Part shown: piece after piece, positions 8,529 to 52,188 of the stretch | Position numbering within the stretch: the stretch's first letter is position 1 | Layout: each line of letters begins with the position of its first letter | Origin: Deltaproteobacteria bacterium | GTDB lineage: Bacteria > Myxococcota > Myxococcia > Myxococcales > SZAS-1 | Reading direction: 5' to 3' | Assembly (NCBI GenBank): GCA_018266075.1 | Contig: JAFEBB010000034.1 | Span: 1-64,000, forward strand | DNA: 64,000 nt | Translations under genes and position numbers: made by a program | Notes under the pieces: model-generated | What the model saw: the letters and a program-made list of their open reading frames with translations, nothing else | Database searches by the model: none | What the model was told of the DNA's origin: nothing

Positions 8529-9941
8529 TCAGTCCGTCGGCAGCCCGAGCATCACCATGTTCACGTTCCAGCGCATGGCCACGTCGGGCTCGTCCTTCTG
8601 GAACTGCTCGGCCGTTCGACGCGCCACTTCGAACTCGGCGGCGTCGGTGGCCTCGCGGATGAGCCGCATGCGCACGCCGTCGTAGCGCTGGGTGAGCATG
8701 TCGTCGCCGGTGATGCGGTGGTCGAGCATGTCCTGCAAGCAGCGCACGGCGGCGGCGTGCTGCTTCTTGCTCTCCATCACCCCGCAGGGCTTCTCCGCCC
8801 AGCTGAACTTCTGGTGCGGCTGGGCCTTGTCTCCCACGCGCTTGCGCTCGGCGTCCGTCTCGGACTCGGCCAACTTGAGCGCGGCCTCGTAGGTGCGGTC
8901 GTCCTCCAGCTCCTGCGCGCGCTGGCTGATCCACATGTTCTCCATGGTCTGCACGCCGGAGAAGTAGAGCGAGCCGGGATAGAGCTTCATGAAGTTCTCG
9001 CCGACCTGCATCGCCAGGCTCGTCTCCTTGAGCTGGCTGTAGCAGTTCATGCGCTGGAACATCGCCATCTGGCGCAGGTGGTAGACGTCGTCCTCGGGCA
9101 GGTCCGAGCCGAGGACCCACTCGGTGTCGCGCAGGCAGGCGTGGACGCGCCGGTTGGCCATGTCCTGCCCGATGAGCTGCATCGCGGTCGTCATCCGGTC
9201 CTGGGTGGCGAGCGACTTGTCCTTCGCCTTGGCGCGCATGGTCTCGAGCTGCTGGGTGACGGCCACCTCGTGCGCGTCGGAGAGCCGCTTGATGCGCTCT
9301 TGCAGATCGAGCAGGTCTTCGGTCGCGTAGAAGAAGTCGGGGTCTTCCTTGAGCGCGCTCTGCAGCATGTTCGCGTGATCCGCGTCGGACATGACCGTGA
9401 AGCTCTGCGCGTAGAGCTTGTACGCGTTCATCGTCTTCTGCGGCTTGACCTTGCGCTTGGCCACGACGTCGGTCGCCGGCGTGCCCGCGAGCTTCACCAC
9501 GATCGCGTCCTGCAGCTCGAAGACGTCCTCGACCTTGCCCGTGACCTTCGCCGCGTCCTTGACGACGCCGGTCTCCACGTCGACGAAGCGGGCCACGATG
9601 CGCAGCTCCTTCTCGACCTTCTGGTAGCTGCCCAGGACCACGGTGCGCGCGCCGACCATCTTGCCGACCTTCGCGGCATTGGAATCGTCGCTGGCCTTGA
9701 GGCCCTGGAGCTGCAGCTCGGCGAGCGCGTGGTTGAGCTGGTCGCGCTCGACGACCTGAAGATGCGAGCCCTTCTTCAAGTCCACCATCATCGTCTCGGC
9801 GATGCCCACCGAGAGCCAGCTCAGCTCCTGCGAGCCGGAGAGATCCTTGAACGGCATCACCGCGATGGGCGCAACAGGCCGGTCGGCGTCGGGCTTCGAC
9901 GCGGGCGCGGCCGCGAGCATCAAGGCGAGCAGAGCGGTCAT
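8529..9941 (-). CDS. FlgO/TolB-like N-terminal domain protein, partner of the cyclase-CHAT protein
   Basis: 470 residues. A weak signal-like N-terminus (MTALLALMLAAAPA) is followed by a domain (about 25-180) typical of FlgO/CsgG/TolB-N-like proteins: PIAVMPFKDLSG, IAETMMVDLKK, LQVVERDQLNHALAEL, GARTVVLGSYQKVEKELRIVARFVDVETG. The remainder (about 180-470) is alpha-helical and may contain TPR-like repeats; four Cys are scattered in it. The start overlaps the stop of the upstream cyclase-CHAT gene in ATGA, so translation is coupled. The FlgO-like domain is paralogous to the C-terminal domain of that upstream protein (PFKNVGGE, YQVIERGQLDVDL, GAEVVVLGSF), suggesting the two assemble through this domain. 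Function unknown. Confidence 0.8.
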   Translation of the reverse strand: MTALLALMLAAAPASKPDADRPVAPIAVMPFKDLSGSQELSWLSVGIAETMMVDLKKGSHLQVVERDQLNHALAELQLQGLKASDDSNAAKVGKMVGARTVVLGSYQKVEKELRIVARFVDVETGVVKDAAKVTGKVEDVFELQDAIVVKLAGTPATDVVAKRKVKPQKTMNAYKLYAQSFTVMSDADHANMLQSALKEDPDFFYATEDLLDLQERIKRLSDAHEVAVTQQLETMRAKAKDKSLATQDRMTTAMQLIGQDMANRRVHACLRDTEWVLGSDLPEDDVYHLRQMAMFQRMNCYSQLKETSLAMQVGENFMKLYPGSLYFSGVQTMENMWISQRAQELEDDRTYEAALKLAESETDAERKRVGDKAQPHQKFSWAEKPCGVMESKKQHAAAVRCLQDMLDHRITGDDMLTQRYDGVRMRLIREATDAAEFEVARRTAEQFQKDEPDVAMRWNVNMVMLGLPTD

Positions 9942-12364
9942 GGACGGAGCCTCGCGCGGGCGGTGGCCACGGCCTTCACCATCTCGGCGCTGACCGCGTC
10001 CTGGAGTTGGAGGAGTTGGGCCTTGGGCTTGTCGAGGCGCACGGCGGTGATCACCTCGCCGGTCTCGGCGTTCACGAAGCGAGCGGTGGCGCGCACGGTG
10101 TCGCCCTCTTGCTGGAAGCTGCCCAGCACGACGACCTCCGCGCCCTGGATCTTGCCCAGCTGCGCGCGCGTCGCGGGATCGACCACGTTCGCGTCCTGCG
10201 AGAACTTGAGCTCGCCCAGATCCACGTCGAGCTGGCCGCGCTCGATGACCTGGTAGTCGGCCTTGCCCGCGAGATCGGTGACGAGATTTTCCGGCCACGC
10301 GTCGGCGAGGTAGTTCACGCTCGGCTCGCCGCCCACGTTCTTGAAGGGCAGCACCGCGAGCCGCAACGGCCCGGTGTGCCGCTTGGGGTCGGCCGGAGCT
10401 GGCGCTGGCGGAGTCGGCGTTGGCAAAGGCGTGGGCTGCACGACCGGCGGCGTCGACGGGCCGCGCAGCATGATCGCGCCGCCAATCCCCAGCGCCAGCG
10501 CGCCCACGATCCCCGCGATGACCGCGCCCTGCGCGCGCTTCTTGGGCACCAGCGGCTCGGGCACCTGCGGCGGCAAGGCGACGCCGCGCGCAGGCACGGA
10601 CTCGACGTTCATCCGCGGCGCGACCGAGGTGATCATCGGCGAGGCGATCGCCGGATCCAGCTCGCCGGATCGCTTGGCCGGCTGCGGTTGCAGTCGCGCG
10701 CGTCCAGCGGGGAGCGCGAGCCGCGGGTCGCCGTAGAGCGCGTAGCCTGCGAACGAGAGCGGCGCGCGGGCGTGGCTCCAGAGCGCCTGCCGCGCGCGAC
10801 GCACGGCCTCGCCCAGCGGCGCGCCGGAGAGCGCGTGCTCGTAGAAGCGCAGCGCGAAGGCCAGGCCGTCCTCGTCGGGCAATTCCCACATCGGCCCGAG
10901 GTAGTGCTGCACGCCGCGCATGAGCAGGCCCGAGGCCAGCGTCGACACGCCGCGCGCGGCCTCCACCCAGCCTTCACCCGACGCCCGACACGCGTTCGCG
11001 AAGATCACCGCGGGCGCGCGCGCGCCCACCGCGTCCATGAGCGTCTCCGCGTCCACCACGCCGTCGGCGAGCAGCAGTCCCGACGGCGATTCCGCGCGGC
11101 CCTGCACGTTGTGCCCCGCGAAGTGCAGCCAGTGCACGCCGTTCAATGCGGCGAGGAACCTCTCGCGCGTCACCGGGCCTTCGAGGTGCTGCACCTCCAG
11201 GCCCGCGCCCTCGCGAAGCAGGCCCGCGACGGCTGCACCTTCACGCGCGGCCGCCGGCAGGTCGCCCGACGGATTCGAGACCACCAGCGCCGTCGCCACC
11301 TCGTTCACCGGCAGCTTGAGGCCGGGCGAGGTCGCGGAGCGGGTGGCCACGGTGCGGCCCACGGCCATGCGCAGGGCGAGGAAGTCGCGGTCGTCGTGGA
11401 GCAGCTCCCAGGGCACGTGAACGAGCGCGTCCTCGAGCATCACCCGGCAGAAGCGCAGCTCCGTCTGGGCGAGCTTCTGCTGCGCGCGCGGCGAGAGCGC
11501 CTCGGCGAAGAGCTTCTCGCCCAGGTTCTTCACCTCGTCGCGGTAGCTGCTCGGCCCGCCGTGCATGAAGGCGCCGAAGCCGCGCGCCAGGCGATCGAGC
11601 GCGTCCATCGGCAGCGGCACCTCGGCGAAGGCCTTGACGGTGCCTTTGTCCTTGTCGCCGTCGAGCGCCGAGACGCGGATGCCCTCCGCGCCGCGGGCAA
11701 GCTCGAGCACGAAGAGCTCTTCAGACTTGGTGCGCGTCGGCTCCGGCGCGGGCGTCGTGGGCAGCTCGGGCTTGGGTGCGCCGGGGCCCCAGTTGAGCGC
11801 GAAGACCCTGGACGGCTCGCTCTTGCCCTTGAAGCGCACCTCGCCGCGGGGCCAGGTGGCGTCGGCGGGCAGGGCCTGGGCGGCGGCCTCGCTGAGGAGC
11901 ACCTCGTCGGCGCGGGCCTCGTGGTTCACGCGGGCGGCCACGTTCACCGTGTCGCCGAAGACGTCGCCGCCGTCGAGCAGCGCGCGGCCGGTGTGCAAGC
12001 CGATGCGGATGTGGATTTGCCGATCGGAGTCGCCAGGGTGGAGGGCGTTCTCGCGGGCGAGGGTGCGCTGCATCTCGCCGGCGCAGGCGGCGGCCGCGGG
12101 CGCCTGCTCGAAGACGGCCATGATGGCGTCGCCGATGGTCTTCACCACCCGGCCGCCGTGCTGGCCGACGAGCGGGACCAGGGCGTCGTTGTGGCGCTTC
12201 ACCAGGGCCAGGCCCTCGATGTCGCCCTTGCGCTCGAAGAAGCTGGTGGACCCGACGATGTCCGTGAAGAGCACGGCCAGCTCGCGGGCGTGCTTCTCCA
12301 TCAGCTCGCGATCGATCTCGCGGCGGGCGGCGAAGAGGCGCTCGAGGTCGCTGGAGTCGGACAC
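9938..12364 (-). CDS. class III adenylate/guanylate cyclase - CHAT protease - FlgO-like fusion protein
   Basis: 808 residues from a GTG at 12364, chosen because GGGGAG lies nine bases upstream. Residues about 25-190 form a class III nucleotide cyclase with metal-binding Asp35 (FTDIVGST) and Asp79 (TIGDA), purine-selecting Lys75, and Asn141/Arg145 (NVAAR), so it looks catalytically complete. Residues about 215-555 are a CHAT caspase-like domain with His418 (HFAGHN) and Cys459 (FANACRAS), the expected dyad. A hydrophobic stretch at about 613-633 is a single membrane span, followed by a Pro-rich linker and a FlgO/TolB-like domain (about 665-800). The topology would put cyclase and protease inside and the FlgO-like domain outside. 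It is followed by its coupled partner. Substrates are unknown. Confidence 0.88.
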   Translation of the reverse strand: MSDSSDLERLFAARREIDRELMEKHARELAVLFTDIVGSTSFFERKGDIEGLALVKRHNDALVPLVGQHGGRVVKTIGDAIMAVFEQAPAAAACAGEMQRTLARENALHPGDSDRQIHIRIGLHTGRALLDGGDVFGDTVNVAARVNHEARADEVLLSEAAAQALPADATWPRGEVRFKGKSEPSRVFALNWGPGAPKPELPTTPAPEPTRTKSEELFVLELARGAEGIRVSALDGDKDKGTVKAFAEVPLPMDALDRLARGFGAFMHGGPSSYRDEVKNLGEKLFAEALSPRAQQKLAQTELRFCRVMLEDALVHVPWELLHDDRDFLALRMAVGRTVATRSATSPGLKLPVNEVATALVVSNPSGDLPAAAREGAAVAGLLREGAGLEVQHLEGPVTRERFLAALNGVHWLHFAGHNVQGRAESPSGLLLADGVVDAETLMDAVGARAPAVIFANACRASGEGWVEAARGVSTLASGLLMRGVQHYLGPMWELPDEDGLAFALRFYEHALSGAPLGEAVRRARQALWSHARAPLSFAGYALYGDPRLALPAGRARLQPQPAKRSGELDPAIASPMITSVAPRMNVESVPARGVALPPQVPEPLVPKKRAQGAVIAGIVGALALGIGGAIMLRGPSTPPVVQPTPLPTPTPPAPAPADPKRHTGPLRLAVLPFKNVGGEPSVNYLADAWPENLVTDLAGKADYQVIERGQLDVDLGELKFSQDANVVDPATRAQLGKIQGAEVVVLGSFQQEGDTVRATARFVNAETGEVITAVRLDKPKAQLLQLQDAVSAEMVKAVATARARLRP

Positions 12365-47756: not shown

Positions 47757-48818
47757 ATGAAGAGGACTCCCGCTGCCGCCGCCGTGCTTCTCGTGCTTGG
47801 GCTCGCTTCGCTCAGCTATGCCGCCGGAAGCCCTCCGCAGTTGACGGAAGAGGGCTTCCTCACCGACGCCGCGGGCAACCCGGTCTCGGCCAACCTGAAC
47901 ATGCAGTTCGCGATCTACGCCAGCGCCTCCGGCGGGACGCCGCTCTGGTCAGAATCGCAGACGGTGATGGTGACGGCCGGGTACTTCAGCACGCTGCTCG
48001 GCCAGAGCTCGCCCGTGCCCACCAGCGCATTCGACGGCCCGGTGAGGTACCTGGGGGTCACCGCAGACACGGACCCCGAGATGACCCCGCGGCAGCCGAT
48101 CGCGAGCGTGCCCTACGCGCTGGTGGCCAGCGACGTCATCGGGGACATTCATCCCACGAGCATCTCGGTGAACGGACAGACCGTGGTGGACGCGAACGGA
48201 AACTGGACGGGGAGCGTGGCTGGGCTGCAGGGGCCGACCGGACCGGTAGGGCCGACCGGACCGGTAGGGCCGACCGGACCGCAGGGTGGCACCGGCCCGC
48301 AGGGTGCGACGGGGCCGCAGGGCGCAGTTGGACCAACCGGGCCCGCGGGGGCCACGGGGCCCGCTGGGGCGATGTACGTTTGGAGCGCGACCTCCACGGC
48401 TTCGCTCAAGCTTCCTCAAGCCGACGGGCACATCGCTACCTTCACGTTCACTTCACCGTCGGCTGGATTCGCGTTGGTCACCGGCCAGTTCGAAGTCGTG
48501 ATCCGAAACAACTTCGATCAAACCAGCAAGCCGGACTGCTACCTGAGCACCCTGATCGCAGCCGCGCCGACCACGTCGATTCAACCGGGCCCCGGCTACG
48601 CGACGACTTTCATCAACGGGAACCTGCCCACTCAATACAACACTCAAGGCTATCTGAGCCTCTGGTCCACGGCCTCGAGGGTGTTGCCGGTCTCGTCAGG
48701 TTCGAACACCGTCTATCTCAATGGCTCCACGAACTGCCCCACGGGCTTCTGGAGCAACATCACCCTCACGGCCGAGCTCATCGACAACAATCCGTCTGCG
48801 ACAATCAGCGTCCCGTGA
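47757..48818 (+). CDS. exported collagen-like protein, copy 1
   Basis: 353 residues with a signal peptide (about 1-22). The N-terminal domain (about 25-150) has [32 protein letters not shown] and [12 protein letters not shown], a module common in myxobacterial and phage-tail-like exported proteins. A collagen-like stretch follows with about 17 Gly-X-Y triplets (156-206), many GPT, GPV, GPQ. The C-terminal domain (about 207-353) is a beta-rich head ending [14 protein letters not shown]. Likely a trimeric surface fibre. GAGAG lies before the ATG. It overlaps the end of the glycosyltransferase gene on the other strand by 14 bases. Confidence 0.88.
48231..48284. repeat. 18-bp tandem repeat in the collagen-like stretch of copy 1
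   Basis: An 18-base unit encoding GPTGPV starts at 48231, 48249 and 48267; the first two units are identical and the third diverges at its end. The matching stretch of copy 2 is less repetitive, so this copy has expanded recently. Confidence 0.8.
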
Positions 48819-50758: not shown

Positions 50759-51145
50759 ATGCGCGTGATCGGTGTCCTGGTTTTCGTCCTCGCTCTCGCG
50801 GGGTGCAACCCCGCGACGGAGGAGTGCGCCGCCGGCAAGTGCACCGGCAGCGCTCCCACAGGCACGACCAGCAGCGGCACCTCGGCCAGCAGCACATCGG
50901 CGGGCAGCAATGCTGGGGACACAGGTACGTCCTCGGGCGCAACGGGCTCATCTGGCGGCAGCACCACGGGCACCGCTGGCTTCGGCGCAGCAACCGTGAG
51001 CATGGAGTCCGGCGGCCAAGCGGCGGCGAGCCCCTCGTTCCGCGCGCGGTTGGAGATGCGCGCGCCAAGACCGGCCATGGGCTCACCCAACTTCCAATGC
51101 AAGCTTGGCTCGCGGTTCACGGCGGGCCCTGGAGGCACGCCGTGA
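50759..51145 (+). CDS. small Ser/Thr-rich lipoprotein (second copy of module)
   Basis: 128 residues from the ATG at 50759. Lipobox LALAGC (Cys16), a short CAAGKC pair, then a linker almost only of Ser, Thr, Gly and Ala (about 35-80), and a C-terminal region SPSFRARLEMRAPRPAMGSPNF conserved with the frameshifted copy at 47193. The stop overlaps the start of the collagen-like gene as TGATG, so the lipoprotein and fibre are made together. No known family recognised; it may anchor the fibre to the outer membrane. Confidence 0.78.
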   Translation: MRVIGVLVFVLALAGCNPATEECAAGKCTGSAPTGTTSSGTSASSTSAGSNAGDTGTSSGATGSSGGSTTGTAGFGAATVSMESGGQAAASPSFRARLEMRAPRPAMGSPNFQCKLGSRFTAGPGGTP

Positions 51146-52188
51146 TGCGGCACAGCCCATACGCGCTTCTCGCGCTCTCGCTCCTCGCGGCCGGCACCGC
51201 CCGCGCCAACGTGCCCGGCCTGCTCTCGGAGGACGGCTACCTCACCGACGCATCCGGCGTTCCCGCAAACGGCACCTTCACGATGACGTTCTCGGTCTAC
51301 GACAGCGCCTCGGGCGGCAACCGGCTCTGGACCGAAACCCAGACGGTGGTCGTCTCCGCGGGCTACTTCTCGGTGACCCTCGGGGAGGCCTCGGCGCTGC
51401 CAACCGATCTAACCTCGGCGGCGCGCCTCTACGTGGGCCTGAGCGTGGGAACGGATCCGGAGATGTCGCCCCGGCAGGCCATCGTGAGCGTGCCCTACGC
51501 GCTCTCGGCCGGTGTGGCCCTCGACGTCACCGGCGACATCCACCCCTCGAGCGTCACCGTCAACGGACAAGTGGTCATCGACGGCTCGGGCAACTGGACG
51601 GGCGGTCCCAACCAGAGCTGCCCCAGCGGGCCTCAGGGCCCGCCGGGCGCGACGGGGCCCACGGGTCCGCAGGGAGCACAGGGCCCGCAGGGACCGGCCG
51701 GGCAGCCGGGCGGCAGCTCGGGTGCGGCCACTGGCTGGTACGCGAGCTCGACGGCGATCCTCAATGATCCGCAGCCCGACGGCCACGTCTACCGGTTCAG
51801 CTTCAACTCGAGCGTCGCGGGGAGGGCGCTGGTGATCTCCACCGTGCAGGTTATCGCCCGGAACAACTTCGACCAGAACCCGCCGCCCTCGGATTGTGAG
51901 TTCCAACTCGCCCTGGGAAGTGCGCCCAACTCCAACGTGGACGTGGGCGTGCCTGGCATGGTGCGGGTAACCATTCCCGCAAACGTGCCCACCCAGTACG
52001 GAGGCGGAGGCTACCTCGGCTTCAACCAGACCCTTCAGACCACCCTGCCCGTGGTGGTCGGCTCGAACACGGTGTACCTGAACGCTCGGCAGACGAAGAG
52101 CTGCAGCTACTACGGCTTCGCCTTCCCCACGATGAGCGCCGTGCTGCTCGATCCAAACTCGGGCAGCGCGACCATCAACACGCCATAG
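51145..52188 (+). CDS. exported collagen-like protein, copy 2
   Basis: 347 residues, paralogue of the protein at 47757: signal peptide about 1-21, N-terminal module (SEDGYLTDASGVPANG, WTETQTVVVSAGYFSVTLG, PRQAIVSVPYAL), a collagen-like stretch of about ten Gly-X-Y triplets (162-191), and a head domain (about 195-347) ending LDPNSGSATINTP. The head keeps the NNFDQ and VGSNTVYLN motifs of copy 1. Two Cys in the head (DCEFQL, SCSYYG) match Cys of copy 1 and may form a disulfide. GTG at 51142 is an alternative start. Confidence 0.88.
   Translation: MRHSPYALLALSLLAAGTARANVPGLLSEDGYLTDASGVPANGTFTMTFSVYDSASGGNRLWTETQTVVVSAGYFSVTLGEASALPTDLTSAARLYVGLSVGTDPEMSPRQAIVSVPYALSAGVALDVTGDIHPSSVTVNGQVVIDGSGNWTGGPNQSCPSGPQGPPGATGPTGPQGAQGPQGPAGQPGGSSGAATGWYASSTAILNDPQPDGHVYRFSFNSSVAGRALVISTVQVIARNNFDQNPPPSDCEFQLALGSAPNSNVDVGVPGMVRVTIPANVPTQYGGGGYLGFNQTLQTTLPVVVGSNTVYLNARQTKSCSYYGFAFPTMSAVLLDPNSGSATINTP

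Follow-up and report, generated by a model that had tools for sequence, protein, structure and literature searches.

What would a bacterium gain from carrying a nucleotide cyclase and a caspase-like protease on a single membrane-bound chain? The question is raised by a locus in a genome labelled Deltaproteobacteria bacterium (assembly GCA_018266075.1), within positions 1 to 64,000 of contig JAFEBB010000034.1, a stretch that was analysed as a whole and that we call the window. Two genes on its minus strand overlap by four bases (ATGA). The first, P1 (9938..12364), starts with a GTG, has GGGGAG a short way upstream and encodes 808 amino acids that run from a class III cyclase through a CHAT domain and a membrane span to a CsgG/FlgO-like domain; the second, P2 (8529..9941), encodes 470 amino acids with a predicted secreted CsgG/FlgO-like domain and a helical tail. 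We propose, with a probability of roughly 55%, that P1 and P2 together form a transmembrane signalling receptor controlling a cytoplasmic adenylate cyclase and a CHAT protease.

Both enzymes are recognised by Pfam above the respective cut-offs, and the coordinates, domains and residues named in an earlier note, made from the bare sequence, proved right. The catalytic domain of the cyclase (residues 25-184; 11813..12292, minus strand) matches Guanylate_cyc (PF00211) at E 1.5e-21, with 77.3 bits against a cut-off of 21.9. In class III cyclases the positions equivalent to D35 and D79 bind metal, those of K75 and D134 recognise adenine, and those of N141 and R145 serve the transition state. All six are present in P1: the earlier note had called the cyclase apparently complete on the strength of D35, K75, D79, N141 and R145, and D134, which aligns with an Asp of Ma1120, completes the adenylate-cyclase set. 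Ma1120 is the best solved relative (E 8e-24), and in the printed alignment the catalytic residues match except Asn141, which stands opposite an Ala. The domain is thus predicted to be a class III adenylate cyclase that makes cyclic AMP (cAMP). The caspase-like CHAT domain (residues 281-546; 10727..11524, minus strand) matches PF12770 at E 1.1e-30, with 107.5 bits against a cut-off of 24, and is a predicted protease with an intact catalytic pair, H418 and C459. Among solved proteins its profile finds 8rot at E 1.2e-6 and, weakly, TPR-CHAT entries (E 0.24-0.30). The searches found no other CHAT domain in the window's genome.

The fusion is shared by distant relatives. A search with the CHAT region of P1 through 195 genomes of one phylum recovers it in eight of them, from eight genera and seven tool-labelled families (the window's own genome, G007, G060, G061, G065, G110, G115 and G132), and some of these carriers are related to one another at phylum level only. 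P1 is complete in the window's genome and in G060, G110, G115 and G132, for the last four of which Pfam confirms both cyclase and CHAT; contig ends cut the gene in G061 and G007, where the remaining parts stand in the same order. The copy in G065 has a single in-frame TAG (L063:8530-8535) at the Tyr of SFAGYALYG, in the C-terminal part of CHAT, and its reading frame continues past this codon to the CsgG/FlgO-like domain. His and Cys of CHAT are invariant in all eight copies, for which reason a reading of CHAT as a pseudo-protease was set aside, and the six cyclase residues are kept in all seven copies where this domain is visible, in one of them only in part. Identity to P1 among the eight genomes is 47-62% over the cyclase, 38-57% over CHAT and 28-52% over the CsgG/FlgO-like domain, and the juxtamembrane linker, at 18-29% only, has no conserved motif; the contrast between enzymes and linker is what selection on both enzymes would be expected to produce. 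Chance is excluded, as seven other genera have this domain order at such identities over CHAT. Judged from these alignments, the fusion is old and under selection rather than an accident of a single assembly.

Fusions may also exist in other phyla, although a collection-wide genome scan with P1 gave a cyclase match in Candidatus Thermochlorobacter only, and this one lacks a neighbouring CHAT. On plasmids, CHAT matches have 25-39% identity; in neither of the two that were inspected, one an Agrobacterium CHAT protein and the other a Leptospira match without annotation, is a cyclase annotated. A Leptospira plasmid carries an unannotated CHAT-like coding stretch (L125:475-3325) that follows two genes, one of the sigma-70 family and one hypothetical.

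The patchy occurrence of the fusion, in 8 of 195 genomes, might point to an anti-phage or programmed-death system, in which a signal of infection or envelope damage would activate the cyclase and CHAT and stop the cell. CHAT proteases do act in Craspase (PMC9729208), predicted conflict systems use either a caspase or a cyclic nucleotide (cNMP) cyclase (PMC7159879), and PADLOC gives weak matches of the cyclase to Pycsar cyclases. The Pycsar matches, however, reflect no more than the homology that class III cyclases share in general (best E 1e-10), PADLOC has no match for the CHAT domains, and a search of phage records returned no CHAT match. The architecture is constant rather than diversifying, the neighbouring genes are mostly ordinary with no obvious defence island, and apart from P2 no effector is linked. 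We consider a defence function quite improbable.

The pairing of the two genes is likewise conserved. The window's genome, G110, G132 and G115, four genomes from four families, share a 4-bp P1/P2 overlap (ATGA or GTGA); in G061 P2 comes immediately after P1, and in G007 it follows across a gap. Distant relatives thus keep the two genes together, as the earlier note required of its claim. Over 143 residues the CsgG/FlgO-like domains of P1 and P2 share 35% identity (E 5e-21); they are the only CsgG domains found in the window's genome. In a tree the P2 domains stand apart from those of P1 with support of 100/100, and the two copies are therefore old paralogues.

The CsgG/FlgO-like domain of P1 (about residues 656-790; 9995..10399, minus strand) passes the Pfam CsgG profile (PF03783, residues 664-749; E 4.9e-7, 29.7 bits against 20.8) and falls under the cut-off of FlgO (PF17680; E 0.0056, 17 bits against 22.6). 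That of P2 passes both, CsgG at E 8e-9 with 35.5 bits and FlgO at E 4.4e-6 with 27 bits; in both proteins CsgG covers the first half of the model only. The FlgO-like label given to both in the earlier note consequently stands for P2; for P1 the plain name FlgO was dropped, and its domain, which passes CsgG and fails FlgO, is best called CsgG/FlgO/TolB_N-like. P1 has one membrane span, as had been noted before, visible by hydropathy and flank charge at about residues 611-635 (10460..10534, minus strand). Lys and Arg are commoner on its N-terminal side in six of the eight copies, a bias in favour of a topology that places both enzymes in the cytoplasm and leaves the CsgG/FlgO-like domain periplasmic. 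Export is predicted for P2: a hydrophobic, export-like segment directly precedes the CsgG/FlgO-like domain in the P2-type proteins of the window's genome, G110, G132, G115, G007 and G060, and all P2 orthologues with a readable start have an export-like N-terminus.

Ten genomes of one family (f3) contain the periplasmic half on its own, a short P1-like protein with the span and the CsgG/FlgO-like domain, lacking cyclase and CHAT, and followed by P2. At each of the seven f3 loci examined, the pair adjoins, or lies a few genes from, genes for a histidine kinase of the LytS type and a response regulator (His_kinase PF06580 and LytTR PF04397 by Pfam at two loci). The f3 P2 proteins form one clade in the P2 tree (100/100). 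Full fusions occur in several families across the phylum and short forms in a single family, so that the simpler reading is that f3 lost or replaced the enzyme half, although the tree of the short domain is weakly resolved. It looks as if one periplasmic module had been wired to different cytoplasmic outputs, and the f3 pair offers a natural experiment on what that module senses. As a separate observation, the tails N-terminal to the span in the f3 short forms (L066:7641-8378, L006, L045 and others) frequently contain the motif R-x-x-(G/A)GTL(H/Y), and a similar RTGT stretch occurs in the fusion linkers of G110 and G115.

The same f3 pairs could be read differently, namely that the pair has a part in assembling the envelope, comparable to that of LpoB, CsgG or FlgO, and that the cytoplasmic enzymes only monitor or adjust the machinery. 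The Pfam matches to CsgG and FlgO, and weakly to LpoB, agree with this, as does the existence of pairs that do without either enzyme. Yet the pair has no conserved neighbour that functions in envelope assembly, and in f3 its neighbours are signalling genes; we regard this reading as unlikely. Several points nevertheless weigh against a receptor. To our knowledge FlgO, CsgG and LpoB are not signal receptors, and a structural or assembly role for the domains studied here is therefore possible. The gene pairing has exceptions: in G060 a P2-like double CsgG/FlgO-TPR gene lies about 4 kb from P1 on the opposite strand, and in G065 no P2 is adjacent to P1. Moreover, a single-sequence AlphaFold2 model of P1 is unusable, with a mean predicted local distance difference test (pLDDT) of 37 and a predicted template modelling score (pTM) of 0.23. 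In G065 the loss of the partner and the damage to P1 by the TAG codon may be linked, although an assembly error is possible too.

Two further proteins from these genomes deserve mention. One, from G060 (L064:4751-7510), has 919 amino acids and carries two tandem units, each with a CsgG/FlgO-like domain and helical repeats. The other, from G065 (G065:C90; L065:7940-9445), begins with an export-like segment, matches the C14 caspase family (Pfam 9.3e-14) and ends in a CsgG/FlgO-like domain; it is a second fusion of a caspase-like enzyme with a CsgG-type domain, this one probably periplasmic.

How, then, might the receptor work? P1 would sit in the inner membrane with its enzymes inside and its CsgG/FlgO-like domain outside. 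The exported P2 would meet it there through the paralogous domains and act as periplasmic sensor or adaptor, and an envelope signal arriving via P2 would alter the P1 dimer. Class III cyclases have their active sites at the interface of two subunits, and a periplasmic P2 that controls the P1 dimer would for this reason be a natural means of switching the cyclase on or off. The altered dimer would probably also change the activity of the CHAT protease; what this enzyme cuts is most likely a protein of the cytoplasm whose gene lies elsewhere. The domains, the intact active-site residues, the pairing of the genes and the shared architecture are established, and topology and export of P2 have indirect support; binding between P1 and P2, the nature of the signal, the coupling of the two outputs and the protease substrate are what we infer. 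The proposal of the earlier note, that an outside signal sensed by the FlgO-like domains switches the cyclase, the protease or both, is to that extent supported in part.

Another view of the protease is that it is itself the switch: on a signal CHAT would cut the linker and free the cyclase, or cyclase and CHAT together, from the membrane, changing the output of cAMP. Protease, cyclase and span do lie on one chain, a long and variable linker separates CHAT from the outer domain in all copies, and auto-proteolysis has been proposed for another caspase-based two-gene system (PMC7159879). The juxtamembrane linker, though, is conserved at only 18-29% identity and has no motif common to the copies, and we hold such a switch to be unlikely. 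We find cleavage of self or partner altogether less plausible than that of a substrate in the cytoplasm encoded away from the pair, given that P2 is predicted to lie across the membrane from the protease and that the linkers lack a conserved cleavage motif; P2, which should be exported, is an unlikely substrate of a cytoplasmic enzyme.

Returning to the receptor, we would go one step further only tentatively and at less than even odds: a single periplasmic signal, received by the paired CsgG/FlgO-like domains of two proteins, may jointly set cyclase and CHAT, and the pair may be an exchangeable sensing module that one family has wired to LytS/LytTR. If this coupling is true, one membrane receptor of a bacterium would link cyclic-nucleotide signalling directly to proteolysis of the caspase-like kind, and a signalling role would fall to the poorly understood CsgG/FlgO/TolB_N-like domains.

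Elsewhere in the window, the genes at 47784-48818 and 51145-52188 encode secreted-looking paralogues that are 49% identical, one of them with a collagen-like repeat above the Pfam cut-off.

Several described systems share parts of this design. HetF of Anabaena is a membrane-anchored CHAT regulator of development, reported to cleave PatU3 (PMC8406250; PMC12288457); like P1 it combines a CHAT protease with a single membrane span and a regulatory role, and it also has TPR, whereas no cyclase or CsgG/FlgO-like domain is reported for it. In Craspase, the TPR-CHAT protease of type III-E CRISPR, a caspase-like CHAT enzyme is switched by its partner (PMC9729208); its profile match is the weak one given above, and unlike P1 it is RNA-guided and has neither cyclase nor CsgG/FlgO-like domain. 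System 4 (EACC1) of Kaur et al. 2020 resembles P1/P2 in having two membrane-associated genes with a caspase or a cNMP cyclase as the constant enzyme, but there the cyclase takes the place of the caspase instead of being combined with it, EACC1 is the partner and the C-terminal effectors vary widely (PMC7159879). The locus does not belong to it by partner, which is CsgG/FlgO-like, or by its constant architecture, although no EACC1 profile search was made. A protein of Gemmata massiliana (cyclase-FGS-TRADD-N-caspase) does unite nucleotide cyclase and caspase in one polypeptide as P1 does, with other adaptor domains and no CsgG/FlgO-like domain described (PMC8195603). Pycsar is not a fit either: the PycC match is the weak one already cited, and the sole recurrent neighbour, P2, is of CsgG/FlgO type without a PADLOC match. 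TIGR04510, the NCBIfam putative peptide modification system cyclase, matches the P1 cyclase at E 5.8e-7 and, in its later part, P2 weakly at 0.0051; with 28.4 bits for P1 and 15 for P2 against a curated cut-off of 400, neither is a member.

The nearest known architecture is that of rhizobial one-chain cyclase-TolB/FlgO-TPR proteins, encoded on plasmids (e.g. WP_311202861.1). As in P1, an N-terminal class III cyclase is followed by a region similar to the CsgG/FlgO-like domain, and then by TPR; unlike P1/P2, they have no CHAT and hold receptor and repeats in one polypeptide instead of two coupled genes. P1 and P2 look like such a receptor divided between two genes, with a CHAT domain added behind the cyclase, and the one-chain form suggests that they act together. 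One could argue from how common the one-chain proteins without CHAT are that P1 is a rhizobial-type cyclase receptor in which CHAT is a structural relay that has lost proteolysis, but with the His and Cys invariant in eight of eight distant copies we give this hardly any credence. On two Rhizobium plasmids (L117:1-4770; L120:2038-6812) the cyclase-TolB/FlgO-TPR gene has a divergent neighbour annotated as a caspase family protein, a neighbourhood resembling the combination in P1; the neighbour checked at one of the two loci is a C14 caspase, and four other plasmid loci of this type have no caspase neighbour. The earlier note knew of no described system with this domain order, and a full-text literature search for a cyclase-CHAT-CsgG/FlgO receptor likewise found none, while further papers could exist. 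Class III cyclase receptors with TolB/FlgO-type outer domains are already known, and it is the CHAT-bearing, two-gene form that appears to be new.

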